From NCBI GenBank assembly GCA_913058135.1, contig CAJXPR010000033.1, forward strand, positions 1 through 32,303: a DNA stretch of 32,303 nucleotides, written 5' to 3'. Within the stretch, counting starts at the first letter, position 1. Each line of letters begins with the position of its first letter. The stretch is from an uncultured Gammaproteobacteria bacterium. GTDB taxonomy: Bacteria > Pseudomonadota > Gammaproteobacteria > Pseudomonadales > Pseudohongiellaceae. A program made the position numbers and the translations under genes. Shown piece after piece: positions 11,678-32,303 of this stretch. The notes under the pieces were generated by a model that was not told the origin of the DNA, ran no database searches, and worked only from the letters and a program-made list of their open reading frames with translations.

Positions 11678-12412
11678 TTATATCCGGGCGACCACGTCCT
11701 GTTCGGCGGACACTGGCAAATCCGCCGCCTTGCGCTCTGAATACCGGTTGACCAGCGCCTGACTGTGCGGCCGCAGCAACAAGGTAAAGCGGATCAGTTC
11801 CTCCATTACATCCACGATGCGTTCATAGTAGGGCGAGGCACGCATGCGGCCGTTGTCATCAAACTCCTGGTAGGCCTTGGCAACGCTGGACTGGTTGGGG
11901 ATGGTGAACATGCGCATCCAGCGTCCAAGCAGACGCAGGGTGTTAACCGAGTTGAAGGACTGCGAGCCGCCGCTGACCTGCATCACCGCCAGGGTGCGGC
12001 CCTGGGTCGGACGCACGGCGCCCATGCTCAGCGGCAGATGATCGATCTGGGTTTTCATCACGCCGGTGATCTGTCCGTGACGTTCGGGACTACACCACAC
12101 TTGCCCTTCCGACCAGATGGCGAGTTCGCGCAATTCCTGCACGGCCGGGTGCGCATCGCCTGCCACCTGATCGGGTAATGGCAGATCGGAAGGATCAAAT
12201 ATTTTCACATCCGCGCCCAGAAAGCGCAGGATGCGCGCGGCTTCTTCGGTGGCCAGCCGCGAGAATGAACGCTCGCGCAGGGAGCCATACAACAGCAGGA
12301 TGCGCGGCGGATGCGGCAGACAGGCGTGCTGCAGGGCGTCGGCTTTTTTCTGCAGGTAGCGGGTATCCAGTGCCGGCAAATGATCGGGCTCTGGCAGTGT
12401 TCTGACTCTCAT
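11678..12412 (-). CDS. arsH: ArsH-type NADPH-dependent FMN reductase
   Basis: A 244-residue flavoprotein of the ArsH family. The FMN-binding phosphate loop is [10 protein letters not shown] (43-52), followed by [10 protein letters not shown] and the [20 protein letters not shown] block diagnostic for ArsH. In characterised bacteria ArsH oxidises toxic trivalent organoarsenicals such as methylarsenite to pentavalent forms and reduces quinones or metals as a side activity. It is the last gene of a likely padR-MFS-arsH operon, 39 bases after the MFS gene. No arsR, arsB or arsC is in the window, so the physiological inducer may not be arsenite. Confidence 0.92.
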
Positions 12413-12451
12413 GCAAATGACTCCTTTATCAACAGGGTGCTTGTGTAATCG

Positions 12452-13651
12452 TTAACGGGCGGTCGTCGGGGCGGGCGCCGACGCAACTGGCCTGATGAAC
12501 ATCAGCGCGGCAAACGCCAGGCAACCCAGCGCTGCCGACAGCAGCAGCGCATGGATGCCAAAATCATCAATCAGCACGGCAAATACCACCGGGGCAAATG
12601 CCTGGCTGGCGCGCGCCGGCATCATTAGCCAGCCCTGCCGCAGGCCGTAGTCCTGAGGCCCGAATATGGCCAGCGGCAAGGTGCCTTTGGCGATGGTCAG
12701 GATGCCGTTGCCGGCACCGTGCAAGACTGTGAACACGACGGCCAGCGGCGAAATAAACGCCAGCGGTGAATTAAAAGCCAGTAAGCACACGACACCCACT
12801 GGATGCGTCATCGACGCCATGCGGGCGGACAGTAGGGGGTGAAAACGCTGCAGCAGCGAGTATTCCAGAAAGCGGGCGCCGACCTGCGCGGGCCCGACCA
12901 GGCCGGCGATCAGTACGGCGGTAGCCAGCGGCAGACCGGTTTCCTGCAACAGCCTGGGCAGGTGCGCGGCCATGGCGGTGCTGGTGAACCAGGTGACGGC
13001 AAACACAAAGGCCAGCAGCGCCATGGTCAGCCTGCCGTTGGCAGGCGGCTGAAGCGTGTCATCGGTGGCGATTACCCGGGACTTTTTCAGCCGCGGCAAC
13101 ATGAAGCGGTTCAGTGGCAAGCCCAGCAGAATATGTGCGCTGGCCCAGACCAGACAGGCGCCGCGCCAGCCCAGCGCACTTTCCAGTCCCGCTGTTATCG
13201 GCCAGCAGACGGTGCTGGCAAAACCTGCGATCAGGGTAATGCCGGTGATGGCATTGCGGGCGTTGCTACCGTAGATACCGGCCAGGGTCGAGAATGCCGA
13301 CTCGTAAAGGCCCATGGCCATGCCCACCCCGATGATCAGCCATGCCAGCCATAAGGTGACCGGCCCGATCGCCTGGCTGAGCAGCACCAGACCCAGGGCA
13401 AATATCACACTGGAGGCGACCAGCACCGGACGCCCGCCGCGGTGGTCGATACGGCGACCAATCATCGGTCCGAGCACTGCTGACAGCACCAGCGCCAGGG
13501 AAAATGCGCCGAACACATTGCCACTGCTGATGCCCAGATCTTCGGCGATCGGGTTGGCGAGAATCGCTGGCAGGTAATAGGTCGACCCCCAGCCCAGCGT
13601 CTGCGCCAGGCCCAGCGACAATACAATCGGTAAACGCTTGGGTTCCGACAC
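12452..13651 (-). CDS. MFS efflux transporter
   Basis: A 399-residue major facilitator with about twelve membrane segments. The loop GRRIDHRGGRPVL between helices 2 and 3 is the MFS motif A variant. The first half carries QTLGWGSTYYLPAI and the glycine-rich GVGMAMGLYESAFSTLAGIYG in helix 5, a pattern seen in bacterial drug or metabolite exporters. Its place between a PadR-type regulator and arsH suggests export of the compound acted on by ArsH. It is not clearly ArsJ, ArsP or ArsB, so the substrate is left open. The upstream gap to padR is 52 bases. Confidence 0.88.
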   Translation of the reverse strand: MSEPKRLPIVLSLGLAQTLGWGSTYYLPAILANPIAEDLGISSGNVFGAFSLALVLSAVLGPMIGRRIDHRGGRPVLVASSVIFALGLVLLSQAIGPVTLWLAWLIIGVGMAMGLYESAFSTLAGIYGSNARNAITGITLIAGFASTVCWPITAGLESALGWRGACLVWASAHILLGLPLNRFMLPRLKKSRVIATDDTLQPPANGRLTMALLAFVFAVTWFTSTAMAAHLPRLLQETGLPLATAVLIAGLVGPAQVGARFLEYSLLQRFHPLLSARMASMTHPVGVVCLLAFNSPLAFISPLAVVFTVLHGAGNGILTIAKGTLPLAIFGPQDYGLRQGWLMMPARASQAFAPVVFAVLIDDFGIHALLLSAALGCLAFAALMFIRPVASAPAPTTAR

Positions 13652-20205: not shown

Positions 20206-21816
20206 TCAGGGGCCTGCGAGATATTCACCGGCGAGTGTCTGGCGATCTATTTTGCCGTTGTGATTGTACGGCAGAGACTTGCGCACAACAATTTCAGCAG
20301 GCTGCATGAAACCCGGCAGCTCCCTTCGACAGCAGTCCAACACCCGTTCACGCAGTGCCGAGGAGTCGGCACTCTCGTCAGCCCGGTCATCGACCGGTGC
20401 GACAATGAGCAATATACGCTGGCCCAGCGTCGCATCAGGCAGCCCCATCGCCATGGCACCAGCCACCAGACCAGTGCTGTAAGCGACCTCTTCGATTTCA
20501 GTGGGACTGACCCGATAGCCCGACGTTTTTATCATCTCGTCCTTGCGGCTGACAAAATACAGGTAGCCTTCGTCATCCTGCACAACCTGGTCACCGGACC
20601 ACACCGCCAGTTCTGGAACCGTAAGACCGGTATCCTGCCCGGGGCAGGGTCTGAAGCGGCGCGCTGTATTATCCGGGTCTTTCCAGTAGCCAAGCGCCAC
20701 CAGCGCGCCGCGATGCACCAGCTCTCCAGGCTCATCCGGACCGCACAACTGTCCGGCCTCGTTGACGACCAGTATCTCGGCATTCGGGATTGCCTTGCCT
20801 ATGGACTGGGGGCGGTGCGCGATCTGCTCTGGCGGCAGATAGGTCGAGCGGAAAGCCTCGGTCAGACCATACATAAGATATATGCGCGTGTCGGGCAAAT
20901 GCTGTTGCAGGGCGTTAGTGGTGCTTACCGGCATTGCGCCACCGGTGCTGGTAATGTAACGCAGACAGGAGGCGGCCTCAGGGGGCCACGCCAGTTGCGC
21001 CAGCCGGGTCCATAGCGTGGGCACCGCGCCCAGCCCGGTAATGCGGTATCTGGCCACAGCCCGCAACACGTCCCGAGGCAGCAGATAGTTCATCAGTACC
21101 ACTGAGGCGCCCGCGCAGAAGGCGGTGGTAAGCTGACTCAGGCCTGCGTCAAAACTCAACGGCAAGACGGCCAGGATCCGGTCGTCGGAGGTGTTTTCCA
21201 GGTACCCGGCTACGCTGCGGGCCCCGGCCACCATGTTGCGGTGCGACAACACCACGCCTTTGGGTTTACCGGTACTGCCGGACGTATAGAGAATTGCCAC
21301 CATGTCGTTGTCGATGCGCCGATGGGGCCGCGATGGTTTTGCCGCCAACAGATTTTGCCAGTTGCTCAGGCGTATCCATTCGGCGTCACGGACCAGCGCC
21401 ACGTCTTGCGGGCCGAGCTTGTCGTCAACGACAATCACCGTGTGTACGCTGCGCCATTCGGGGATTTTTTCAGCCAGTGTTGCAAGTCGCTGCATGGAGG
21501 TAATCAGCACGCCTGCCTGACAGTGTTCAACAATATGACTGACCTGTCCGGGCTTGAGCAACGGGTTGACAGGCACGAAGCTGGCACCGGCGCAGGACGT
21601 GCCAAAAATGGCAGCAACAGTCTCCGGTTGCGGGGGCAGATAGATGGCCACGCGTTCGCCGGCATCGACACCAACGGCCAGCAGTCCGTTTGCCACCTGT
21701 TGCATCATCGCCTGCAACTGCGAATACGACACATGGGTTTCACCGCACACAACGGCGGTTCTGCTGCCATCGGCTTCAGCCTGTGCGGTGATCAGTTCAT
21801 GCACAAGTTCAACCAT
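20206..21816 (-). CDS. Exosortase A-associated acyl-CoA ligase (AMP-forming)
   Basis: A 536-residue adenylate-forming enzyme of the TIGR03098 type. The P-loop-like motif AILYTSGSTGKPKGVVLSH is near 173-191, the adenine-binding region YLMYGLTEAFRSTYLP near 310, the ribose-binding and hinge segment SRKDEMIKTSGYRVSPTEIEE near 430, and the catalytic Lys in NHNGKIDRQ near the C-terminus. It activates a carboxylic acid as acyl-AMP and transfers it to CoA or a carrier. In this group the true substrate is unproven and may be an amino or fatty acid. It is the first gene of the minus-strand operon. GGGAG lies upstream of ATG 21816. Confidence 0.9.
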   Translation of the reverse strand: MVELVHELITAQAEADGSRTAVVCGETHVSYSQLQAMMQQVANGLLAVGVDAGERVAIYLPPQPETVAAIFGTSCAGASFVPVNPLLKPGQVSHIVEHCQAGVLITSMQRLATLAEKIPEWRSVHTVIVVDDKLGPQDVALVRDAEWIRLSNWQNLLAAKPSRPHRRIDNDMVAILYTSGSTGKPKGVVLSHRNMVAGARSVAGYLENTSDDRILAVLPLSFDAGLSQLTTAFCAGASVVLMNYLLPRDVLRAVARYRITGLGAVPTLWTRLAQLAWPPEAASCLRYITSTGGAMPVSTTNALQQHLPDTRIYLMYGLTEAFRSTYLPPEQIAHRPQSIGKAIPNAEILVVNEAGQLCGPDEPGELVHRGALVALGYWKDPDNTARRFRPCPGQDTGLTVPELAVWSGDQVVQDDEGYLYFVSRKDEMIKTSGYRVSPTEIEEVAYSTGLVAGAMAMGLPDATLGQRILLIVAPVDDRADESADSSALRERVLDCCRRELPGFMQPAEIVVRKSLPYNHNGKIDRQTLAGEYLAGP

Positions 21817-21991: not shown

Positions 21992-22007
21992 TGGCTCAGC
22001 CTTTGCG
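21992..22007 (+). promoter_or_regulatory. Sigma-54 promoter of the phosphatase operon
   Basis: TGGCTCAGCCTTTGCG has the invariant GG and GC exactly ten bases apart, TGGC at -24 and a full TTGC at -12. It differs from TGGCAC-N5-TTGC by one base. The start would be near 22018, about 55 bases before the phosphatase ATG. PrsR is the likely activator. Confidence 0.68.
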
Positions 22008-22071: not shown

Positions 22072-22635
22072 ATGATATGGTCGCGACCTGAAGCACAGGT
22101 GCTGTTCGTGTGTACTGCAAATATTTGCCGCTCCCCGCTGGCGGAAGCGCTGCTGCGTCATCGTCTCGGCGATCTGGGCCTGGAGAAACGCGTTCGCGTG
22201 CGCTCGGCAGGCACCCAGGCCGCACGGCGCGGTTGCCGGCCGGATCCCAGAGTCCAGCAACTGGCGGCCGGGTTCGGGATTTCGCTAGCGGGCATCCGCG
22301 CCCGGGCGCTGACACCAGCGCTGCTGCACAACAGCGACTTTGTGGTGGTGATGGCACGGGAGCATCTGGACCACATTAATCGCGTGTTTGCGCGCGATGC
22401 CTGGTCTCGGGAGGGAACGACTGACGGAGATGTATCAGAAAAAGTGCAATTGCTGGGGAGTTTTCTTCCACGTCGGCACGGCAGCGCAGTCGATATTCCG
22501 GACCCCTATTACGGCGATCAGCAGGGTTTTTACACCGTCCACCAAATGATTGATTCTGCGCTAAGCGGTTTCCTGCACCAACTGGATGCATTTCTGGAAA
22601 ATAGTGAAACGAAAATGAGAGGTCTGGCACCTTAA
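22072..22635 (+). CDS. Low-molecular-weight protein-tyrosine phosphatase
   Basis: A 187-residue LMW-PTP (Wzb/Etp-like). The active-site loop is VCTANICRSP with nucleophile Cys14 and Arg20 in the C-x5-R pattern, and the general acid Asp is in IPDPYYG near residue 143. An RSAGT segment after the first helix is also typical. It would dephosphorylate the Gly-Tyr tail of the tyrosine autokinase at 16811. It is divergent from the exopolysaccharide operon and first of a plus-strand set, 22 bases before the acyltransferase. No strong ribosome site is seen before ATG 22072. It has about 30 extra residues compared with Wzb, chiefly in the segment after EHLDHINRVF. Confidence 0.92.
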   Translation: MIWSRPEAQVLFVCTANICRSPLAEALLRHRLGDLGLEKRVRVRSAGTQAARRGCRPDPRVQQLAAGFGISLAGIRARALTPALLHNSDFVVVMAREHLDHINRVFARDAWSREGTTDGDVSEKVQLLGSFLPRRHGSAVDIPDPYYGDQQGFYTVHQMIDSALSGFLHQLDAFLENSETKMRGLAP

Positions 22636-22657
22636 ACTCCCGCACAGGATGGTAATG

Positions 22658-23443
22658 ATGTCCAAACCGAACCCTGCACCTGCCGGGCTTTCGCGCCTGG
22701 AAGAGTTCAATCACTACTTTGAACTGGCCCCCGCTGTTAGCCAGGCGCAGCGCAATATGGTCTACCACATACGCTATCGCGTGTACTGCGAAGAATTCGG
22801 TTACGAGTCACCGGAATCATCCAGCAATGGCGAAGAAATTGACGAATTTGACGATCAGTCCGCGCATTGCCTGGTCACCCACCGGCAGTCCGGCGTGCCG
22901 GTAGGCTGCGTGCGTGTGGTCATGCTCGAAGGCGACGACAGGCTGCCCATGGAGATTCATGCCGGTGACAGCCTGCATCAGGCTTACATGGACGAATTTG
23001 CCACACAGCGCAATGTCATCTGCGAAATCTCCCGACTCGCTGTGGACAGCGCATTTCGCCGTCGCAACCGTGAGCAGTCCACCCGGTTCGGCAATATCGA
23101 TGCCGTTGGGGCAGCAGGGCCGGAGCTGCGCTCCCTGCCCCTGGTGGCACTGTCTCTGATGGTAGGCGCTGGAGCGCTGGCAGATGTGGTGGGCAGAAAG
23201 CACTGCTTTGCGATCATGGAGCCTTTTCTGCCGGTCATGATGCGACGCGCCGGCATTCATTTCCGGCGCGTCGGCGAAGACTTTGAGTTCCGCGGGGTAC
23301 GTGCGCCCTACTACGGAGACATGAGTGAGCTGTTCAACAATGCGCCTGAAGAGCTGCGCCAGTATTTTAATCTGATGCGCTCAGAGTTTGCGGCGACGCT
23401 ACAGGCCAGGCCCCTGTTTGAAAAGCTGCCTCATGAGACCTGA
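22658..23443 (+). CDS. PEP-CTERM/exosortase-associated LuxI-like acyltransferase
   Basis: A 261-residue acyltransferase of the TIGR03694 group, related to acyl-homoserine-lactone synthases and N-acyl amino acid synthases. YHIRYRVYCEEFGYE near residue 33-47 is the LuxI-like N-terminal core (R-x-x-V-Y-x-x-E), and PVGCVRVV is the central strand. VICEISRLAVDSAFRRRNRE is the third conserved part. Enzymes of this type join a fatty acyl group to an amino acid; members linked to PEP-CTERM loci have been shown to make long-chain N-acyl amino acids, tyrosine among them. The start at 22658 has AGGAT seven bases upstream; ATG 22649 and 22655 are in-frame alternatives. The flavoenzyme follows after 86 bases. 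Confidence 0.87.
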   Translation: MSKPNPAPAGLSRLEEFNHYFELAPAVSQAQRNMVYHIRYRVYCEEFGYESPESSSNGEEIDEFDDQSAHCLVTHRQSGVPVGCVRVVMLEGDDRLPMEIHAGDSLHQAYMDEFATQRNVICEISRLAVDSAFRRRNREQSTRFGNIDAVGAAGPELRSLPLVALSLMVGAGALADVVGRKHCFAIMEPFLPVMMRRAGIHFRRVGEDFEFRGVRAPYYGDMSELFNNAPEELRQYFNLMRSEFAATLQARPLFEKLPHET

Positions 23444-23529
23444 CCAATCAAGCTGAGAGAGAGAACTGACAACGCAGTCGGACCTGGCGGGACCAGGCAT
23501 ACAAAAAACAAGGACAAGGAGTAGTTGGC

Positions 23530-25134
23530 ATGTCAATAAGCGCCAGGAATGCGCTTGATGCATTCGTCGCCCTGCTGGGCAAGGACAACGTGGTTACCGG
23601 CGACGCCGATTTACAGCAATATCGGCGTGCCACGTTTCACTGCGATATCGATGTACCCGCGGTGGTGCGCCCCGCCAACATTGCCGATGTGCAGGCATGC
23701 CTGCGCATCGCCAACGAGTTCAGAGTGCCTGTTTACCCGATCAGCACCGGCCTGAATATCGGCTACGGATCGACGGTACCGCCTTCTGCCGGCTGCATTA
23801 TCATGGAGCTGAAACGCCTCGACCGTATCATCGAATACAATGCTGAGCTGGGGTATGTGCGAGTTGAGCCCGGGGTAACCCAGCAGCAGCTTTACGATTA
23901 TCTGCGCGAGCACAATGCGCCCTACTGGCTAGATGTGACCGGATCCACGCCACGCCACAGCATGATCGGCAATATCGCCGAACGGGGGTTTGGCCATACG
24001 CCCTATGCCGATCATTTTGCCAACATCGGCGGCTTCCAGGTAGTGCTGCCCAACGGCGACCTGCTCACCACCGGCTTTGGCCAGTTCGACAACGCTGTCG
24101 CCACGGGTGCCTATCGCTGGGGCGTGGGGCCGCATTATGACGGGCTGTTCACGCAATCAAACCTCGGCGTGATTGTTGAGGCCACCATCTGGCTTATGCC
24201 CGAGCCGGAATACATGCAGTTCTTCTCCTGCCGTATCGCGCACGAAGCAGATCTGCCCGCACTGATCGAACTGCTACGCCCGTTGCGGCTGGACGGCACC
24301 ATCCGCAGCGCCATGCACATCGGCAATGATTACAAGATTGTTTCTGCCACCCAGGGCTATCCCTGGACACAGGCAAAAGGCGCAACGCCGCTGCCGCAGG
24401 ATGTCATGCAGGCCAAGGTCAGGGAATGGGACTGCGGTTCCTGGAACGTATCGGGCGCGCTCTACGGCACGCGCGCCACCGTGGCGGATGCCCGCAAACG
24501 CATCAGGCGCCAGCTGCGTGGTCAGGTGCAACGGCTGCGCTTCGTCGATCAGCGCCTGCTGACACTGGCAGAGCGTTTTGCCAAACCCTATCAGCGGCTG
24601 ACCGGGGTCAGATTGGCCGAAGTTCTCAAGGTGCTGAAGCCGGTGTTCGGCATGACCCGTGGCGTGCCCTCGGCCGCGATGATGGCCAGCAATTACTGGC
24701 GCAAGAAAGACTTTCCCGAAGCATCGGCCGACCTCAGCCCCGAGCAGGATAACTGCGGCGTTATGTGGCTGGCGCCGGTGGCCCCCACCCGCGGCGTCCA
24801 CGCCGCCGCCATCTGGGATATCGTCAAGACCACCATGCTTGCCCATGGTTTTGAGCCATCGGTATCGATCACTCTGATCAGCGAGCGAAGCCTGGACTGC
24901 GTGGTGAATCTGGCCTACGACCGTGACATCCCCGGTGAGGACGGCCGGGCCATGGACTGCCACGATGACATGCTGGCGCAGTTTTGTGCCGCCGGCTACT
25001 ACCCGTATCGATTGGGTATCCAGGCAATGAGGAAGATGCCCCCGAAGACGGCTTCGTATGACAGGTTTTTTGCGGACATCAAATCCGCTGTTGACCCCAA
25101 TGGCATACTCGCACCGGGGCGCTACCTGCCCTGA
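23530..25134 (+). CDS. VAO/4-cresol dehydrogenase-type FAD oxidoreductase
   Basis: A 534-residue flavoenzyme of the vanillyl-alcohol oxidase/PCMH family. FAD-binding features are VYPISTGLNIGYGSTVPPSAG (about 70-90), YVRVEPGVTQQQLYDYL, and the VTGSTPRHSMIGNIAERGFGHTPYADHF block (about 138-165) that closely follows 4-cresol dehydrogenase (GS-x-x-x-S-x-x-GN-x-x-x-RG-x-G-x-TPYADHF). The C-terminal substrate domain ends with the family's NPNGILAPGRY-like VDPNGILAPGRY. Members oxidise para-alkyl or para-alkoxy phenols via a quinone methide. AAGGAG lies eight bases before ATG 23530. Its place next to an N-acyl amino acid synthase suggests a tyrosine-derived phenol as substrate (inference). No cytochrome partner is in the window. 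Confidence 0.87.
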   Translation: MSISARNALDAFVALLGKDNVVTGDADLQQYRRATFHCDIDVPAVVRPANIADVQACLRIANEFRVPVYPISTGLNIGYGSTVPPSAGCIIMELKRLDRIIEYNAELGYVRVEPGVTQQQLYDYLREHNAPYWLDVTGSTPRHSMIGNIAERGFGHTPYADHFANIGGFQVVLPNGDLLTTGFGQFDNAVATGAYRWGVGPHYDGLFTQSNLGVIVEATIWLMPEPEYMQFFSCRIAHEADLPALIELLRPLRLDGTIRSAMHIGNDYKIVSATQGYPWTQAKGATPLPQDVMQAKVREWDCGSWNVSGALYGTRATVADARKRIRRQLRGQVQRLRFVDQRLLTLAERFAKPYQRLTGVRLAEVLKVLKPVFGMTRGVPSAAMMASNYWRKKDFPEASADLSPEQDNCGVMWLAPVAPTRGVHAAAIWDIVKTTMLAHGFEPSVSITLISERSLDCVVNLAYDRDIPGEDGRAMDCHDDMLAQFCAAGYYPYRLGIQAMRKMPPKTASYDRFFADIKSAVDPNGILAPGRYLP

Positions 25135-25256: not shown

Positions 25257-25272
25257 TGGCACACTTGCTGCA
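25257..25272 (+). promoter_or_regulatory. Sigma-54 promoter of the PEP-CTERM gene
   Basis: TGGCACACTTGCTGCA has a perfect TGGCAC at -24, GG and GC exactly ten bases apart and CTGCA at -12. Transcription would start near 25283, about 44-59 bases before the translation starts. This fits control by PrsK/PrsR encoded nearby. Confidence 0.82.
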
Positions 25273-25314: not shown

Positions 25315-25344
25315 GGAGTTAGGAATATGGGAGTTAGGAATATG
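25315..25344 (+). repeat. 15-bp tandem duplication of ribosome site and start codon
   Basis: GGAGTTAGGAATATG occurs twice head to tail (25315-25329 and 25330-25344). Each copy has a GGAG ribosome site and an ATG in the same frame, so the gene has two equivalent starts five codons apart. Confidence 0.93.
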
Positions 25345-26214
25345 AAAACTATCAGTAACACGAAGAAAATGGTCGCCGGGCTGGTTCTGGCCATGGGCGG
25401 CCTGTCCGCAGGCACCGCGTCTGCTTCCATGATCGAATCATGGGACTGGATTTCAGACGGTGGCTTCCAGATTGGCGGCGCTACCTGTGACAACGGCGCA
25501 GAGGCTGCCTGCAGTCTGCAGTATGACAACACATCTGTTGAAACGCCAAGCGGCATTGCCGGGACGGCCAGCATGATGACCTGGGGCACCGGTTCCGGCG
25601 GTGGCGCACAGAGCGGCCTGCAGGGCGTCTTCGGTGGCTCAATGGCGCCCGATAACGGTCCGTTTGACGCCCAGGCGCTTGACTCCGGGTCGGTACCGAT
25701 TCCCATGTTCGAGCAGATTATGACCAATGGCGGCTGGACCAACACCGGTGCTGCGGTTCACTACAACAACGTCATCACCGAGCTTGGTGGTCACATGACC
25801 AGTGCCGTACTGACTACCAGTTTCCAGCTGCTGTCACCGAACGTGGGTCCGTTGAATGTGGCCAACCTGAACATTGATTTTAACGAAACTCTTAATTCGG
25901 GTTCATGTACATCAGGCAATCCACACGGAACCGTGTGTGATGATGTGTTTACCCTGACAGGCAACCTGGCCCCGGTTTCATTCGAGGTTGATGGCCGGCT
26001 GTACACCGCATCATTCCGACTGGCTGATGGACCGGGCGCTATTGTGCAAGGTGACACCATCTATACGGCCGAGATGAATCCCGGTACTGCAGTGATGTAC
26101 GTGCAGGGCCGTATTGATACCATCCCGCTGCCCGGCGTCCTGGCGCTGATGGGTATGGGCCTGGTGATGATCGGCTGGCAGGTACGAGGCCGCGGTCGTC
26201 GCAAGCTGGTCTGA
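25342..26214 (+). CDS. PEP-CTERM sorting-domain protein, THxN-like
   Basis: A 290-residue exported protein (295 if ATG 25327 is used). Signal peptide: MKTISNTKKMVAGLVLAMGG followed by LSAGTASA. The C-terminus has the three-part sorting signal: a short motif DTIPLPG, a membrane segment VLALMGMGLVMIGW and a basic tail RGRGRRKLV. The motif reads P-L-P rather than V-P-E-P. The body includes TWGTGSGGGAQSGL and VHYNNVIT, resembling the W-G and T-H-x-N parts of THxN-type PEP-CTERM proteins. Exosortase would remove the tail and the protein would reach the cell surface or matrix. A sigma-54 promoter precedes it and a terminator follows, so it is a single-gene unit. Confidence 0.87.
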   Translation: MKTISNTKKMVAGLVLAMGGLSAGTASASMIESWDWISDGGFQIGGATCDNGAEAACSLQYDNTSVETPSGIAGTASMMTWGTGSGGGAQSGLQGVFGGSMAPDNGPFDAQALDSGSVPIPMFEQIMTNGGWTNTGAAVHYNNVITELGGHMTSAVLTTSFQLLSPNVGPLNVANLNIDFNETLNSGSCTSGNPHGTVCDDVFTLTGNLAPVSFEVDGRLYTASFRLADGPGAIVQGDTIYTAEMNPGTAVMYVQGRIDTIPLPGVLALMGMGLVMIGWQVRGRGRRKLV

Positions 26215-26269: not shown

Positions 26270-26308
26270 GTGCCCCGGCGGGCACTGATTTATTCAGGGA
26301 GGTTGACG

Positions 26309-28663
26309 ATGGCAAAGGACTTTGCTTTTCTCGTAGCAACAACAAAAAAAACAATCGCCACACCGGTTTTCCGCTGCGCTGGCTATCTTGCCCTGACAGC
26401 AGCACTGACCGCTTGCTCACCGGCAGCGGATGAGGATCTGCTGGGACGCGCACGAACGGCCCTGGACGAAGGCAACATCAGGGCCGCGGAGATTGATGTC
26501 CGAACCGCCTTGCAGGAAAGCCCGGACAACGCCGAAGGTCGGCGCCTGCTGGGCGAGATCAGTCTGTACCAGCAAAACCCGGCGGCCGCCGCGGAACAGT
26601 TTGAACGTGCCCTGCAGGCGGTCGACGGTGACGCCGACAACCATGCAGAGCTGCATGTATTGTATGCGCGGGCGTTGCTGGCAGCTCGCCGCAGCGAGCA
26701 ACTGCTGGCGCAGCACGAACAGGGTGATTTCTCCAGTGTTGCCAACCATCCGCGCTATCTTGCCATTCTTGCCACGGCTCAGGCCGAGGCAGGGCAGTTG
26801 CAGAACGGTCGCGACTCGCTGACAGCGGCGCTGACGGCTGCACCGGATGATCCTCTGGTCGTCACCACCGATGCGCTTTTCCAGCTGCTGTATTCGCAAA
26901 ACCTGGAAGCGGCGCAAACCATTCTGCAAGACACCGTGGTGGCGCATCCCGACTATGCAGACGCCTGGAGTCTGCTCGGCGGCATTCAGCGGATGACCAG
27001 AGCATTCAGCGAGGCAGAAGCCAGCTACGCCAAAGCAGTGGAACTTAACCCGCGACGCTTCACCGACCGCCTTAACCTTATTTCTGTACAGCTCGACCAG
27101 GGCGATACGGAAGCGGCCAACGACAAATTGCAGGCGATGTTGGCCAGTGATCCTGATCACCCCGGCGTGAACTATCTGTACGGCCGGATGCTGGTGGAAG
27201 GTGGCGAGAACGTGGAGGCGCTGACCGCTCTGGCCAACGTGCTGAGTGTGCTGCCCGATCATCCTGGCAGCCTGTACCTGTCCGCTGTCGCCAACATCGC
27301 TGAAGGCAATCTGGCCACCGCGCGCAGTCAGCTGGATCGACTGCTTGCCGCTCAGCGTGACAACGTGCAGGGGCATTTGCTGATGGCCAATCTGCACCTG
27401 CTCACGGAAGACCCCCAGGGGGCAGAAGAAGTGGCGCGCAGCATTCTGCAGGACGACAACACCAACTATGCCGCCATGAGTCTGCTGGCGACAGCGCTCA
27501 ATGCCCAGGGTCGAAGCAGCGATGAGGAAACCATCGAGCTTTATCAGCGCATGGCGCAGGCTCGCCCGGACGCCGCAGAACCTCGGTGGGCTCTGGGGTC
27601 TGCGCTGATGCAGGCTGGTGACGCTGACGCCGGTGCCGAGCAGTTCCAGCTGGCCCGCGAGCTGTCACCGGAACCCACCGTGGCGCAGGAGCGAATGATC
27701 CAGACGCGGCTCGCCAATGGCGACGTTGCCGGTGCACGAGCAGATGCTGAAGCGTATGCGCAGCAGCAACCGCAAAGTCATCGCCCGCACCTCTTCCTGG
27801 CCCGGATCGCCATGAAGCAGAATGATCTGGATGAGGCACGCACGCAGTTTGGTGAAGCCGAGGAACGCCTGCATGAGGCCCTTGCTGAAGAACCGGATAA
27901 CCTGGAACTGCAAGTGTTGATGATCGACGCCTTGATGGGACAGGGCAAACTCGAGGAAGCGGACGTCCTGCTTACTGCCCTGCCGCCAGACCTCGTCAAT
28001 GACCCGGGTGCACTGCTGGCCAGGGGACGCATAGCACTTGCCGAAGACCGGCCGGCAGAGGCGGAACCACTGTTGCGCCGGGCGCTGACAGAGAGCCCGA
28101 ACTCCATGACCCTGTTATGGTTGAGCGGCGCGATCGGTGCGCAGGGTCGTGTTGATCAGGCAATCAATCTGCTGACCGAATGGCTTGCCGACAATCCGGC
28201 CGACGTGCTGGTACGCAATGAACTGGCGTCCATCTATGTGCGCCTGGGCCGCGAAGAAGAGGCCCGGGAGGAGTACCAGCGGGTGGTCGAAAGAGGACCG
28301 GATAATGTGTTCGTGCTGAACAACCTGGCCTGGCTGCTGCGCGAAGATGATCCGCAACAGGCACTGGAGCACATCAAAAGAGCCAGAGAGCTTTCTCCGC
28401 GCAATCCGCGGATTATTGACACGCAGGCGATGATCCAGCTTGAAATCGGCGAGATACAGGAAGCCTTGTCACTGAACCAGGCAGCCCTGGATCTGGCGCC
28501 GGAGGCGCCCGACCTGCTGTACAACCGGGCGCTGATTCTGCATGCCAATGGTGAAAGTGACGAAGCCTACGACATTCTGCAGACACTGGCCGGCGCGGAA
28601 AATGCTGCCTACCCGCAGAAGGAACAGGCCCGGGCGCTTCTCGCCGAGTGGCAGCAGCGCTGA
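26309..28663 (+). CDS. prsT: XrtA/PEP-CTERM TPR lipoprotein PrsT
   Basis: A 784-residue protein made almost wholly of tetratricopeptide repeats. The lipobox LTAC (Cys36) follows a hydrophobic stretch, so it is a lipoprotein facing the periplasm. TPR-type units recur from about 45 to 780, for example YADAWSLLGGIQRMTRAFSEAEASYAKAVELNP (in part: AWSLLGGIQRMTRAFSEAE) and NVFVLNNLAWLLREDDPQQALEHIKRA (in part: VLNNLAWLLREDDPQQALEH). It is a constant companion of PrsK and PrsR in exosortase A genomes and is thought to scaffold surface assembly. The ATG at 26309 has AGGGAGG six bases upstream; a longer frame to 26270 starts in the terminator. It converges with prsR. Confidence 0.92.
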   Translation: MAKDFAFLVATTKKTIATPVFRCAGYLALTAALTACSPAADEDLLGRARTALDEGNIRAAEIDVRTALQESPDNAEGRRLLGEISLYQQNPAAAAEQFERALQAVDGDADNHAELHVLYARALLAARRSEQLLAQHEQGDFSSVANHPRYLAILATAQAEAGQLQNGRDSLTAALTAAPDDPLVVTTDALFQLLYSQNLEAAQTILQDTVVAHPDYADAWSLLGGIQRMTRAFSEAEASYAKAVELNPRRFTDRLNLISVQLDQGDTEAANDKLQAMLASDPDHPGVNYLYGRMLVEGGENVEALTALANVLSVLPDHPGSLYLSAVANIAEGNLATARSQLDRLLAAQRDNVQGHLLMANLHLLTEDPQGAEEVARSILQDDNTNYAAMSLLATALNAQGRSSDEETIELYQRMAQARPDAAEPRWALGSALMQAGDADAGAEQFQLARELSPEPTVAQERMIQTRLANGDVAGARADAEAYAQQQPQSHRPHLFLARIAMKQNDLDEARTQFGEAEERLHEALAEEPDNLELQVLMIDALMGQGKLEEADVLLTALPPDLVNDPGALLARGRIALAEDRPAEAEPLLRRALTESPNSMTLLWLSGAIGAQGRVDQAINLLTEWLADNPADVLVRNELASIYVRLGREEEAREEYQRVVERGPDNVFVLNNLAWLLREDDPQQALEHIKRARELSPRNPRIIDTQAMIQLEIGEIQEALSLNQAALDLAPEAPDLLYNRALILHANGESDEAYDILQTLAGAENAAYPQKEQARALLAEWQQR

Positions 28664-28671
28664 CTCGGCAA

Positions 28672-28694
28672 GGGCCGTCAGTTACTGGCGGCCC
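28672..28694. terminator. Possible hairpin between prsT and prsR
   Basis: GGGCCG-T-CAGT-T-ACTG-G-CGGCCC is a near-perfect 23-base palindrome between the two convergent genes. It includes the prsR stop codon (28682-28684). There is no T-run, so it may be only a weak bidirectional terminator. Confidence 0.4.
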
Positions 28695-30142
28695 ACGCTG
28701 CTGACGACATTGTCAGTTCCGCCGGCAATCTTGGTTGTCACAGCTTTCTCAGCTCTGCCAGCCTTTTTGTCGAGCTGATATTTCTCCAGCATGCTGTACA
28801 GCGTCGGTCGGGCCACACCAAGCAGACTGGCCGCCTCGGAGATGTTGTCCTCCGTGTAACTCATGGCACGGACAATCGCCTGCTTTTCGGCGGTCTCGCG
28901 CACCCTTCGCAGGTTCAGTGGCATATCGCCAAGCTCGTCTTCTGCCAGGCTCAGATCCATGTCCTGCGCCGTCACCTGGCTGCCTTCCGCCATGATCACG
29001 CCGCGCTTGACCCGGCTTTCCAGCTCCCGCACGTTACCGGGCCAGGTGTATTTCTCAATGGCCGCAATAGCCGCGTCGTCGAAGCCCTTGACGTTGCTGG
29101 ACAGCTCGGCTGCGAAACGCGACAGGAATGCCTTGGCCAGTACTGCGGCATCGCCGTCACGATCTTTCAGGGCCGGGATTTCAATGGTCATCTCGCTGAC
29201 CCGGTAATACAGATCCTCGCGAAAACGGCCAGCCTGGATCTGCTCTTCCAGGTTCTGATGCGTGGCGCAGACAATGCGTACATCCACCGGGATTTCGCGT
29301 CGCCCACCAATACGTTCCACCACGCGCTCCTGCATGAACCGCAATAACTTGGCCTGCAGATCCAGTGGCAGATCGCCTATCTCATCCAGAAACAGCGTGC
29401 CGCCGTCGGCGTATTCTATCCTGCCCGGCGTCTGCTGGCTGGCGCCGGTAAAGGCACCTTTTTCGTAGCCGAACAGCTCACTTTCAAGCAGGTTCTCCGG
29501 AATGGCGGCGCAGTTTATCGCAACCAGCTTTTTGCCTGCTCTGGGACTCAGGTGATGCAGGGCGCGGGCGAAGCGCTCCTTACCGGTGCCGCTGGCGCCG
29601 AGCAGCAGCGTGGTGATATCACTGGGGGCGATTTTCTCCACGGTACGACAGACCTTGAGCATTTCCGGGCTGATAGCGATGATGTCCCGCAGCGGCATGT
29701 TCTCGTCATGGTGTTGCAATTTGGAGTTTTCCAGCTCCAGTTCGTAAACATGTTGAGCGCGTTCCACCAGCAGCGCCAGCAGCGCAGGGTCGGCAGGTTT
29801 CTGATGAAAATCGTAGGCGCCATTGGCAATGGCCTTGACCGCATTGGCATGATCATTGTCCCCAGTGACAATGATCACCTTGGTCCGTGGTGTCAGGGAA
29901 AGTATTTCTTTCAGTGTCGCCATGCCTTCGCTCACACCGCCCGGGTCCGGCGGCAGACCGAGATCCAGCAGCACTACACCGGGCTCGTAACGACGCAGGG
30001 CGGTGATGGCTTCACTGCGGTCACCGGCGATGATCACCTCGTAGCCATCAAAGGCCCAGCGCAACTGGCTTTGCAGACCTTTGTCATCTTCAACAACCAG
30101 CAGGTATCTGGTTGTGTCATTGTCCTGACGATTCTGTGTCAT
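28682..30142 (-). CDS. prsR: PEP-CTERM-box response regulator PrsR (sigma-54 activator)
   Basis: A 486-residue NtrC-type regulator. The receiver domain has the acidic pocket EDD (18-20) and the phosphoacceptor Asp60 (VVLLDLGLPP), with the Lys in FHQKPAD. The AAA+ domain (about 150-380) has Walker A GASGTGKE, the sigma-54 contact loop GAFTGA, Walker B GGTLFLDEIGDL and the arginine finger region REDLYYRVSE. A Fis-type helix-turn-helix closes the protein (NISEAASLLGVARPTLYSMLEKYQL). It should activate the sigma-54 promoters at 21992 and 25257. Its start lies inside prsK, overlapping by 26 bases; AAGGA is five bases upstream. Confidence 0.95.
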   Translation of the reverse strand: MTQNRQDNDTTRYLLVVEDDKGLQSQLRWAFDGYEVIIAGDRSEAITALRRYEPGVVLLDLGLPPDPGGVSEGMATLKEILSLTPRTKVIIVTGDNDHANAVKAIANGAYDFHQKPADPALLALLVERAQHVYELELENSKLQHHDENMPLRDIIAISPEMLKVCRTVEKIAPSDITTLLLGASGTGKERFARALHHLSPRAGKKLVAINCAAIPENLLESELFGYEKGAFTGASQQTPGRIEYADGGTLFLDEIGDLPLDLQAKLLRFMQERVVERIGGRREIPVDVRIVCATHQNLEEQIQAGRFREDLYYRVSEMTIEIPALKDRDGDAAVLAKAFLSRFAAELSSNVKGFDDAAIAAIEKYTWPGNVRELESRVKRGVIMAEGSQVTAQDMDLSLAEDELGDMPLNLRRVRETAEKQAIVRAMSYTEDNISEAASLLGVARPTLYSMLEKYQLDKKAGRAEKAVTTKIAGGTDNVVSSVGRQ

Positions 30143-32252
30143 ACGAGTTCCTTTCGCTTGTCGTGTCTTCCCTTGCCGGCGTGCACGGTATGGTGACGTG
30201 AATGGTCGTCCCTTTGCCGATGCTGCTGCTCACACTGATATCGCCGCCCAGCTGGCGAATATACTCACGGCTTTCGAACGCGCCGATGCCCATGCCGGTC
30301 AGGCCCTTGGTAGAGTCGAACGGGCGGAACAGGCGGTCGCGGATAAAATCTGCGCTCATGCCATGTCCGTTATCCTCGATATCTATCCGCGCCAGATCCG
30401 CATCACCCGCCAGCCGGACAATCACGTACCCCTCGCTGGCGGCCGCTTCCTGGGCATTCTGGATCAGGTGACTGAACACGGTAACCAGTCGTTCCCGATC
30501 TGCCTGTACGGTGAACGCGGCCTCGCCACGATTGTGCATGGACTGATCGCCGGTGGCAACCTCTGCACGTGGCGCCGGCCGGGTGCCTGCCCTGCCCGCA
30601 ACAACTTCCTGCACCAGTCTGGTCAGATCCACACTGTCTGTGGGGGCACTGCGCAGTCCACTACGCATCTGCTCCATCAGCCGCTGCATGCGCGCTACCG
30701 AGTTCTCCACGGTGCTGATCATGTCATCAACAAACGCAGGGTTATTGCGGTGCCTGGCGGCATTGGCAACAATCAGCGACTGCTGGGCAAGCACATTTTT
30801 CAGATCATGGACCACATAGGCGGAAAGACGATTGAAGGCATCAAACTGGCGCGCTTCGACCAGTGCGTTGCTGGCCATATGCTGGGCCAGGTGGGTCGCC
30901 GCCTGACAGCCGGCGGTCTTGAGCAGATCCCGATCCTCCCAGTTGATGCTGTGTTTGAGCGGTGATCTTTTCAGCATCAGCACAGCCTGCAACTGGTCAC
31001 GGAACATCAGCGGAATAATCAACCAAAGCTGGTTGTCGTCCTGCAGCCAGGCCGGCAGTTCCAGATCCTCGTAGACCTCGGGTGAGCGCCGCCACTCGTC
31101 CAGATCTATCACCCAGTCGGTTTTCTGCAGCCAGCCCGGCAGCGCTTCCAGGTCAGCGCCAGCGGGCGGGCGCGGCATTTCCCAGTTGGCCAGCAGACGC
31201 ATGGGTTGTCCATCATCGCTGGCCCACAGCAGACCGGCCGGACTGCTGGCCAGTGGCGCCATGATGGCGATGATGCCCTCGTAAACACCCTCGTTGAGGC
31301 TGGCCAGCGCCCGGGTGAACTTCAGCCATTCTTCACGATAATCATAGTGGTAGTGGAAAAAATGCTTACTCAGAAACACCACGATTTGCGCCCGGACCCG
31401 GCCGGAGAACAGCACCGCGCTGAGCAGCGCCGCCGCCGCCGCGAGAAAACCCAGTTGCAGCACACTGCCCCAGGAGCCGCCAAGATAGCTGATGGCATAT
31501 CCGGCCGCCGCCATGGCCAGCAGATACAGGCCCGCCCCAGTCAGGGTCACGGTATGGAACACCACCTGGCGGGAAACCTGCAGATTCACCCGCCAGTTAC
31601 TGTTGCGTGAGATGGCCACGGCCAGCAAGGGAAAGGCTAGTGCATTGATCAGCCCACGAGCGTCCCACAGCTCCCGGTCCAGTTCACGAAACAGCAGCGC
31701 CTCTGCGTACATGAAAAAATCATAGGCGAGCAATGCGCCCAGGCCCAGACACAGGTATTTGATCGACCAGCGTGCGTTCCGGGTAGCATTACGGTATAGC
31801 TGTTCAATTAGCACCAGGCCCAGCAGGGCCAGAACCAGCCACAGGGCAAGAATGAGCGGATACCGCAGCCCCTGGGCCAGGGGCTGCGGTGACACCAGTG
31901 GGCGACTCACGATCAGCACCAGCGCCGCGGCGAATATCGGCAATGCCGCCCGACGCCAGCGCCAGCCACCAATTGACCAGAGCGAACCGTCAGTCTGCAG
32001 GCCCAGCAGCTGCAGCAGGATGAACAGCCAGCTGCCGTTGCGGGCCAACTCGACCAGCAGCACCAGTGCGACCGGCTGCACCGTGACCGAGCTTAACGCG
32101 ACTGTGGCCGCCCACACGGCGGTGGCAGCGCAGGCGACCAGTAATGAACCGCCCAGCGGGCTGGCGCGCCGGAACATGACCAGCAAAACGCCGAGAACAG
32201 TGAAGCAGACACTTGCTGCGAGGTAAGTGATGAGTCCGATATTTACCAGCAT
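30117..32252 (-). CDS. prsK: XrtA/PEP-CTERM histidine kinase PrsK
   Basis: A 711-residue membrane kinase. About nine or ten membrane segments fill residues 1-310, starting with MLVNIGLITYLAASVCFTVL. A GAF-like region follows (about 330-470), then the phosphoacceptor helix with YVVHDLKNVLAQ (His near 490), and the ATPase with VFSHLIQNAQEAA (N-box), IDIEDNGHGM (G1) and GLTGMGIGAFESRE (G2). It phosphorylates PrsR. The genuine start is ATG at 32250-32252; the open frame continues upstream only because the adapter adds MGSEMCIRDRL. Only four genomic bases remain 5' of the start, so the promoter is off the contig and a further upstream start cannot be excluded. Confidence 0.93.
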   Translation of the reverse strand: MLVNIGLITYLAASVCFTVLGVLLVMFRRASPLGGSLLVACAATAVWAATVALSSVTVQPVALVLLVELARNGSWLFILLQLLGLQTDGSLWSIGGWRWRRAALPIFAAALVLIVSRPLVSPQPLAQGLRYPLILALWLVLALLGLVLIEQLYRNATRNARWSIKYLCLGLGALLAYDFFMYAEALLFRELDRELWDARGLINALAFPLLAVAISRNSNWRVNLQVSRQVVFHTVTLTGAGLYLLAMAAAGYAISYLGGSWGSVLQLGFLAAAAALLSAVLFSGRVRAQIVVFLSKHFFHYHYDYREEWLKFTRALASLNEGVYEGIIAIMAPLASSPAGLLWASDDGQPMRLLANWEMPRPPAGADLEALPGWLQKTDWVIDLDEWRRSPEVYEDLELPAWLQDDNQLWLIIPLMFRDQLQAVLMLKRSPLKHSINWEDRDLLKTAGCQAATHLAQHMASNALVEARQFDAFNRLSAYVVHDLKNVLAQQSLIVANAARHRNNPAFVDDMISTVENSVARMQRLMEQMRSGLRSAPTDSVDLTRLVQEVVAGRAGTRPAPRAEVATGDQSMHNRGEAAFTVQADRERLVTVFSHLIQNAQEAAASEGYVIVRLAGDADLARIDIEDNGHGMSADFIRDRLFRPFDSTKGLTGMGIGAFESREYIRQLGGDISVSSSIGKGTTIHVTIPCTPAREDTTSERNSYDTESSGQ

Positions 32253-32256
32253 GAGC

Positions 32257-32303
32257 CTGTCTCTTATACACATCTCCGAGCCCACGAGACAGGCAGAAAT
32301 CTC
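32257..32303 (+). other. Nextera i7 adapter with Tn5 mosaic end (artefact)
   Basis: Positions 32257-32275 are the mosaic end CTGTCTCTTATACACATCT, 32276-32290 the read-2 arm CCGAGCCCACGAGAC, 32291-32298 (AGGCAGAA) match a standard i7 index and 32299-32303 start the P7 arm. Not genome; genomic sequence ends at 32256. Confidence 0.98.

Follow-up and report, generated by a model that had tools for sequence, protein, structure and literature searches.

What becomes of the lipid made by an N-acyl amino acid synthase when a flavoenzyme of the vanillyl-alcohol oxidase (VAO)/p-cresol methylhydroxylase (PCMH) superfamily is encoded immediately behind it is the question raised by the DNA considered here, a 32,303-nucleotide stretch of contig CAJXPR010000033.1 from an uncultured gammaproteobacterium of the Pseudohongiellaceae (hereafter the window, by which we mean the whole stretch). 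The two genes stand in an XrtA/PEP-CTERM locus, the kind of system to which Craig et al. in 2011 reportedly tied N-acyl amino acid synthases:

22649-23443, + strand: N-acyl amino acid synthase of 264 amino acids (aa), TIGR03694 family, with a predicted LuxI/FeeM fold and a putative catalytic Glu126
23530-25134, + strand: VAO/PCMH-superfamily flavoenzyme of 534 aa, belonging to the CndG clade and predicted to be an N-acyl tyrosine oxidative decarboxylase

By analogy with characterised relatives, we consider it reasonably probable that these would form a two-enzyme lipid pathway, in which tyrosine is N-acylated and the resulting N-acyl tyrosine is oxidatively decarboxylated to an enamide.

The identity of both genes, which an earlier sequence-only reading of this DNA had proposed, was borne out by profile and structure-database searches. 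The product of the first gene scores 212.3 bits against TIGR03694 (curated cut-off 111.95) and also lies above the Pfam cut-offs for Acetyltransf_5, FeeM and Autoind_synth; an in-frame ATG 9 nucleotides (nt) into its open reading frame (ORF), at position 22658 and with an AGGA ahead of it, is an equally plausible start. FeeM is an N-acyl tyrosine synthase with specificity for tyrosine, and tyrosine is likewise the amino acid that we predict for the window synthase. In a search with the predicted model of the synthase (predicted local distance difference test, pLDDT, 84.8), the FeeM chains of PDB entry 2g0b were among the top fold matches (E-value 1.0e-07). Furthermore, Glu126 falls in a column that is invariant in all 74 aligned synthase relatives and that aligned, in a profile comparison, with a Glu of the FeeM set. 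The Glu of FeeM is described as catalytic in a 2016 paper which also calls the physiological function of N-acyl amino acids and their synthases unclear (PMC4897644). Characterised synthases of N-acyl amino acids are stated to use acyl chains carried on acyl carrier protein (acyl-ACP; PMC8762209), which would probably be the donor here as well, and a supply of acyl groups via the TIGR03098 ligase of the divergent operon is possible, as a hypothetical route. In Methylomonas sp. LW13, disrupting one synthase of this kind reportedly cost the cells their normal polysaccharide band and their ability to grow in a gradient system (PMC11072679).

The flavoenzyme gene is full-length and starts 86 nt downstream of the synthase on the same strand. 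Its product scores 91 bits against Pfam FAD_binding_4, and a phmmer search of the PDB recovered PCMH (E-value 8.6e-79), VAO (about 1e-58) and eugenol oxidase. Such strong superfamily matches to solved chains would suit an ordinary alkylphenol catabolic enzyme of the 4-cresol dehydrogenase or eugenol oxidase type, either cytochrome-coupled or using oxygen. To place the enzyme among its relatives, genome contigs were scanned with a three-member flavoenzyme alignment, which recovered 245 relatives; the best 80 loci were kept, 31 context loci and the reference loci were added, and three duplicate loci were removed (L048, a copy of L147; L174, of L093; and L176, of L088). Rows that are nearly identical but come from separate genomes (e.g. 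three from Microcystis) stayed in. In a FastTree phylogeny of the final set of 118 flavoenzymes, with Shimodaira-Hasegawa (SH)-like supports and rooted arbitrarily on L224, 97 sequences including the window enzyme split from 21 PCMH/VAO-like outgroup sequences drawn from 19 loci, with a support of 0.924, or of 0.843 after removal of one long-branch member. A small same-strand ORF with a CxxCH motif was found within 300 bp of none of the 97 clade members (window included), as against 7 of the 21 outgroup enzymes, which makes an oxidase likelier than a cytochrome-coupled dehydrogenase. On the absent cytochrome neighbour and the separate clade, we reject cytochrome-coupled cresol catabolism as the role of the window enzyme. 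With the tree setting the window enzyme apart from the PCMH-like genomic homologues, and the gene standing in a PEP-CTERM/exopolysaccharide locus, we regard a catabolic alkylphenol enzyme of either kind as very improbable.

The residues of the clade point to a phenol as the substrate. Tyr79, Tyr493 and Arg494, which align with the phenolate-anchoring residues of VAO and PCMH, are all present in the window enzyme and are conserved in 78, 88 and 95 of the 97 clade members respectively. The same columns are conserved in the outgroup (21, 20 and 20 of 21), so they argue for a phenol substrate and not for this particular phenol. Specific to the clade are Cys409 (92/97), Tyr389 (89/97) and Pro278 (93/97), which are absent or rare in the outgroup. 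FAD is bound covalently through a His in VAO and through a Tyr in PCMH; the column of the VAO His (411 by alignment) is occupied by Val in the window enzyme and by His in 9 of the 21 outgroup rows. Cys409 lies two residues from this flavin-linking column and is a candidate for a covalent cysteinyl-flavin bond. As a possible sign of decarboxylation we also considered the column that aligns with VAO Asp170. Gly occupies it in 93 of the 97 clade members, but none of the 21 outgroup enzymes has Asp at this position either (13 Ala, 5 Gly, 2 Ser, 1 Met), and it was therefore not used, as it says little about whether an enzyme of this clade decarboxylates its substrate or leaves the carboxyl group in place.

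The reaction itself is best indicated by a clade member from a Polyangiaceae genome (G458), whose gene overlaps by 4 nt the end of a nonribosomal peptide synthetase (NRPS) gene of condensation-adenylation-peptidyl carrier protein-thioesterase (C-A-PCP-TE) architecture. About 38 kb away lies a halogenase identical at 512 of 512 residues to PDB entry 3e1t, which a table in PMC8407142 gives as CndH of the chondrochloren pathway of Chondromyces crocatus. The homologue is the one flavoenzyme match in G458 at an E-value of 1e-60 or better; it shares 44% identity over 527 aa with the window enzyme, and both fall in the same clade, apart from the PCMH-like sequences. Given the neighbouring halogenase identical to CndH, the NRPS overlap and the single match in the genome, we take this homologue to be the chondrochloren oxidative decarboxylase, the gene name of which is presumably CndG. 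According to PMC3039461, the C. crocatus enzyme depends on FAD and decarboxylates an acyl tyrosine oxidatively, by way of a quinone methide from which the carboxyl group is lost. FeeG is likewise reported to convert N-acyl tyrosines to N-acyl-4-(2-aminovinyl)phenols (PMC8762209).

Since the clade holds the chondrochloren enzyme, the likeliest product of the window pair would be one lighter by CO2 and two hydrogens (-46.0055 Da). The sequence-only reading had envisaged that tyrosine is acylated and its side chain then oxidised or desaturated, to give a product 2 Da lighter or 16 Da heavier than N-acyl tyrosine; we retain the order of acylation and oxidation, but the product is revised to the enamide and the expected mass with it. 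In the pathway as we propose it, the TIGR03694 synthase would draw on acyl-ACP or acyl-CoA to place a long acyl chain on the amino group of tyrosine or of a close aromatic amino acid. The flavoenzyme would then hold the phenolate of this product by the conserved Tyr79/Tyr493/Arg494 set, its FAD would remove a hydride from the benzylic carbon to form a para-quinone methide, and this would lose CO2 to leave a long-chain N-(4-hydroxystyryl)amide, i.e. the enamide, 46.0055 Da below N-acyl tyrosine. The reduced FAD would be reoxidised in the absence of a dedicated cytochrome subunit, probably by O2. We base this second step on the reaction of the anchor enzyme together with the conserved residues.

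The quinone methide is an intermediate common to this reaction and to one in which the flavoenzyme would desaturate or hydroxylate N-acyl tyrosine and spare the carboxyl group, yielding a dehydrotyrosine (-2 Da) or a beta-hydroxy derivative (+16 Da). Where the carboxyl group is blocked, the acid is reported to be retained and a dehydro product to arise; with a free carboxylate, the closest characterised relative, the C. crocatus enzyme, decarboxylates (PMC3039461). N-acyl dehydrotyrosines do exist as natural products, but the route proposed for their known producers, in the account given in PMC12479983, relies on an enzyme of the nitroreductase family. We accordingly rate oxidation without decarboxylation as unlikely, if the foremost of the alternatives.

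To see whether the pair is conserved, we examined the neighbours of all the flavoenzymes with profiles built here for three sets of N-acyltransferases, namely TIGR03694, FeeM and a set termed c4. The last is made up of proteins of about 290 aa found within 1.3 kb of the flavoenzyme in 12 of the 14 acidobacterial loci of the survey (e.g. L082:8373-9191, with relatives in L075, L076, L078-L081, L085-L087, L089 and L092). The two c4 members tested gave no match, in Pfam (L078) and in NCBIfam (L082) respectively. The predicted structure of c4 (pLDDT 87) matched acyl-homoserine-lactone synthases best (E-value 1.5e-07), with FeeM at rank 25 (1.7e-05), and its profile matched the TIGR03694-type set with a probability of 91% as against 0.3% for the FeeM set. 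We thus predict c4 to be an acidobacterial acyltransferase family with a LuxI-like fold.

With these profiles, an N-acyltransferase gene was detected within 300 bp of 39 of the 97 clade flavoenzymes (21 TIGR03694, 8 FeeM, 10 c4), on the same strand in 37 of the 39, and within 3 kb of 45; none was found beside the 21 outgroup enzymes at either distance. Three more clade members, and again no outgroup enzyme, have a gene with an NRPS condensation domain within 300 bp. The figure of 39 is a lower bound, since 11 of the 97 have less than 1 kb of flank on one side. In the 80-locus survey taken alone, 36 of 81 enzymes are adjacent to an N-acyltransferase, or 22 of 67 when the 14 loci of the Marinobacter group are left out. 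The pairing is thus more than chance. Both gene orders occur: the synthase leads in the window and in loci of the Cellvibrionaceae, the Methylococcaceae and Colwellia, the flavoenzyme in those of the Marinobacter group. FeeM-family genes within 300 bp of a clade flavoenzyme were found in Massilia, an Oxalobacteraceae bacterium, a deltaproteobacterium and a planctomycete, and the family was confirmed by Pfam in L105 and L145. The planctomycete genome (G425, locus L145) has ten flavoenzyme homologues at an E-value of 1e-40 or better, and its L145 copy overlaps the FeeM gene.

These counts also bear on whether the flavoenzyme acts on some other substrate, such as a free para-alkylphenol or a tyramine derivative, and is a neighbour of the synthase merely by way of a common surface or secondary-metabolism island. 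Such a reading is favoured by the 52 clade members that lack an N-acyltransferase of the three sets within 3 kb, and by the cyanobacterial members, which adjoin a type III polyketide synthase and a methyltransferase. Against it stand the close, mostly same-strand association with three N-acyltransferase families and its absence from the outgroup, as well as the two gene orders and the several synthase lineages that have been paired. On the whole, we hold a different substrate to be distinctly unlikely. The sequence-only reading had put forward conservation of the pair as a check, and the pair does recur in several lineages and in both orders, yet it is found with a minority of TIGR03694 genes.

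The last point emerges from a sample of 369 genomes of the class, the own genome of the window included, which we cross-tabulated by hand. A flavoenzyme match at an E-value of 1e-60 or better is present in 13 of these and TIGR03694 in 47, at 68 places. By the tree, five of the 13 have a clade enzyme (the own genome, G139, G191, G233 and G287), and TIGR03694 occurs in all of these except G287; the two genes are adjacent in three of the four genomes with both, those of G233 lying on different contigs. None of the eight sampled genomes with PCMH-like enzymes has TIGR03694. In the synthase tree, which leaves out L210 (the same gene as in L234), the flavoenzyme-linked synthases fall in several places, suggesting that the two genes were probably brought together, or passed on as a pair, on more than one occasion.

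Several observations weigh against the enamide pathway. Only 4 of the 47 TIGR03694 genomes hold a clade flavoenzyme, and G287 has the clade enzyme and no TIGR03694. A neighbouring flavoenzyme was present at just 1 of 39 other synthase loci, a count that leaves aside L036 and L040, whose linkage was already established, and L041-L044 and L047, where the match was weak or cut. Of 30 genomes chosen from among those of the 52 clade members with no N-acyltransferase of the three sets within 3 kb, TIGR03694 is present in 4, FeeM in 7 and one or the other in 10. Furthermore, c4 was recognised in the first place as a flavoenzyme neighbour, so only TIGR03694 and FeeM provide independent tests, and when the c4 profile is set aside the adjacency count falls to 29 of 97. 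As the linked synthases are scattered in their tree rather than grouped in a single clade, they may not all use the same amino acid. Likewise, since flavoenzymes of the clade occur in NRPS, type III polyketide synthase and synthase contexts, not every one of them need be a decarboxylase. Tyr79 is replaced by Leu in 13 of the 97. Lastly, FeeG is likened to the clade here by its described reaction, and the known routes to N-acyl dehydrotyrosines employ a nitroreductase-type enzyme instead of a flavoenzyme of this kind (as set out in PMC12479983).

The remaining neighbourhoods of the clade are diverse. PEP-CTERM-type proteins occur near the flavoenzyme in two clusters, with one member of each tested: c9 at seven acidobacterial loci, and c12 at six mainly deltaproteobacterial ones. 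At seven loci (L095, L096, L103, L104, L111, L112 and L113, all deltaproteobacterial apart from L112, which is from Acidobacteria) a conserved ORF of cluster c10 follows the flavoenzyme tail to tail. We considered c10 as another N-acyltransferase and did not adopt it, as its profile matched the two synthase sets with probabilities of 0.4 and 0.2% and it appears membrane-protein-like by eye; the member tested gave no Pfam match. An MMPL-type transporter (c17) precedes the flavoenzyme in four of these seven loci and in L090. The cyanobacterial clade members (L097-L100, from Microcystis and Desmonostoc) have a type III polyketide synthase and an ICMT-like methyltransferase alongside, which suggests that their substrate is a different phenolic lipid.

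In the window, the genes and sites around the pair are as follows:

20206-21816, - strand: exosortase A-associated acyl-CoA ligase in the divergent operon (TIGR03098, 731.2 bits)
21992-22006, + strand: weak sigma-54-like core 5' of the phosphatase-synthase-flavoenzyme run, not significant
22072-22635, + strand: low-molecular-weight phosphotyrosine phosphatase (PF01451, 117.8 bits), probably the first gene of the operon
25257-25272, + strand: sigma-54 -24/-12-like site TGGCACACTTGCTGCA, 54 nt before the PEP-CTERM gene and with one mismatch to the consensus
25327-26214, + strand: THxN family PEP-CTERM protein downstream of the pair (NF038125, 113.5 bits)
26270-28663, + strand: PrsT, a tetratricopeptide repeat (TPR) protein (TIGR02917, 407.7 bits)
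28682-30142, - strand: PrsR, the PEP-CTERM-box sigma-54 response regulator (TIGR02915, 689.2 bits)
30117-32303, - strand: PrsK histidine kinase, open at the contig end (TIGR02916, 758.8 bits)

The identities of PrsT, PrsR, PrsK and the acyl-CoA ligase as neighbours were thereby confirmed. A gap of 13 nt separates the phosphatase gene from that of the acyltransferase downstream, making a three-gene run of phosphatase, synthase and flavoenzyme likely. Further matches in the window include an exosortase-linked export protein, a chain-length protein, a tyrosine kinase and a TIGR03016 outer-membrane protein. The sequence-only reading had also put the pair under PrsR/sigma-54 control, which our site searches leave unsupported. 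Cores like that at 21992-22006 number 5 in the window against 2.79 expected, i.e. the one upstream of the run is at chance level. Moreover, a -24/-12-like site was found within 300 bp 5' of the first gene of the unit, as defined in this analysis, in just 1 of 40 synthase/flavoenzyme rows (39 distinct, as the list counts both L048 and L147). The good site in the window instead precedes the PEP-CTERM gene, and comparable sites precede 7 of 15 genes of the c3 (THxN) cluster and 4 of 5 of c15 (EDSAP-1), but 0 of 7 of c9 and 1 of 6 of c12, the background being 0.052 per 300 bp. The c3 BLAST cluster is present in 14 loci including the window and lies by the pair in the Marinobacter group; THxN was confirmed in both of the other c3 loci tested (L130 and L146). 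Direct sigma-54 control of the pair is thus unproven, and control of the THxN PEP-CTERM gene is plausible from its promoter-like site.

Beyond the window, the same genome encodes XrtA on a separate contig (C84; TIGR03109, 328.8 bits), so that the synthase shares its genome with an XrtA/PEP-CTERM system whose PrsT, PrsR and PrsK lie in the window itself. Neither XrtA nor TIGR03694 at or above its cut-off was detected in the 34 other sampled genomes of the family, 14 of them congeners. Their presence in the own genome could possibly reflect a horizontal gain or mis-binned contigs. Elsewhere in the window (11678-13651), ArsH (384 bits) stands beside an ArsK-like major facilitator superfamily (MFS) transporter (244.5 bits, cut-off 400); these are likely to be an arsenic resistance pair.

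With a partner enzyme that recurs and whose product can be predicted, the role of PEP-CTERM-linked N-acyl amino acids becomes testable, with an exact mass shift to be sought in Marinobacter, Massilia, Colwellia, methanotrophs and Acidobacteria. As a broader and more tentative suggestion, which we think possible though somewhat doubtful, oxidases of the CndG type may have been recruited repeatedly by TIGR03694, FeeM and c4 synthases to furnish long-chain N-(4-hydroxystyryl)amides for PEP-CTERM/exopolysaccharide surfaces. If so, the N-acyl amino acid synthases found with exosortase systems would gain a defined product further down the pathway and a role, presumably at the cell surface or in the biofilm, where the amide could serve as a phenolic matrix lipid open to oxidation or as a signal controlling the matrix.

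In the titles, abstract openings and selected passages of the open-licence PMC papers that were searched, we found no account of a TIGR03694/flavoenzyme pair in a PEP-CTERM setting. The chemistry has clear precedents, as acylation of tyrosine followed by oxidative decarboxylation is already known from the fee pathway and, with an NRPS first step, from chondrochloren. The fee pathway, from soil environmental DNA and yielding long-chain enamides and enol esters, is like the window proposal in both steps (as described in PMC8762209 and PMC2895911); it differs in its synthase, which is FeeM there and TIGR03694 in an XrtA/PEP-CTERM locus here. The CndG-type enzyme shares its clade with the window enzyme and is described as acting on an N-acyl tyrosine (PMC3039461), but its substrate is delivered by a polyketide synthase/NRPS line ending in C-A-PCP-TE, whereas the window has a single stand-alone acyltransferase. 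In the stieleriacine, thalassotalic acid, kyonggic acid and tyrazolone pathways a stand-alone synthase makes the N-acyl tyrosine and the side chain is oxidised thereafter, as we propose here; unlike in our proposal, the account in PMC12479983 gives this second step to a nitroreductase-family desaturase with a ThiF-like protein, and the carboxyl group is kept. The 4-cresol dehydrogenase, VAO and eugenol oxidase share with the window enzyme the superfamily and the phenol-binding positions, from which it is distinguished by its separate clade, the lack of a cytochrome gene alongside and its other signature positions. Finally, the PEP-CTERM-linked synthases offer the same combination of TIGR03694 and an exosortase setting as the window, to which the adjacent tailoring flavoenzyme is the addition seen here.

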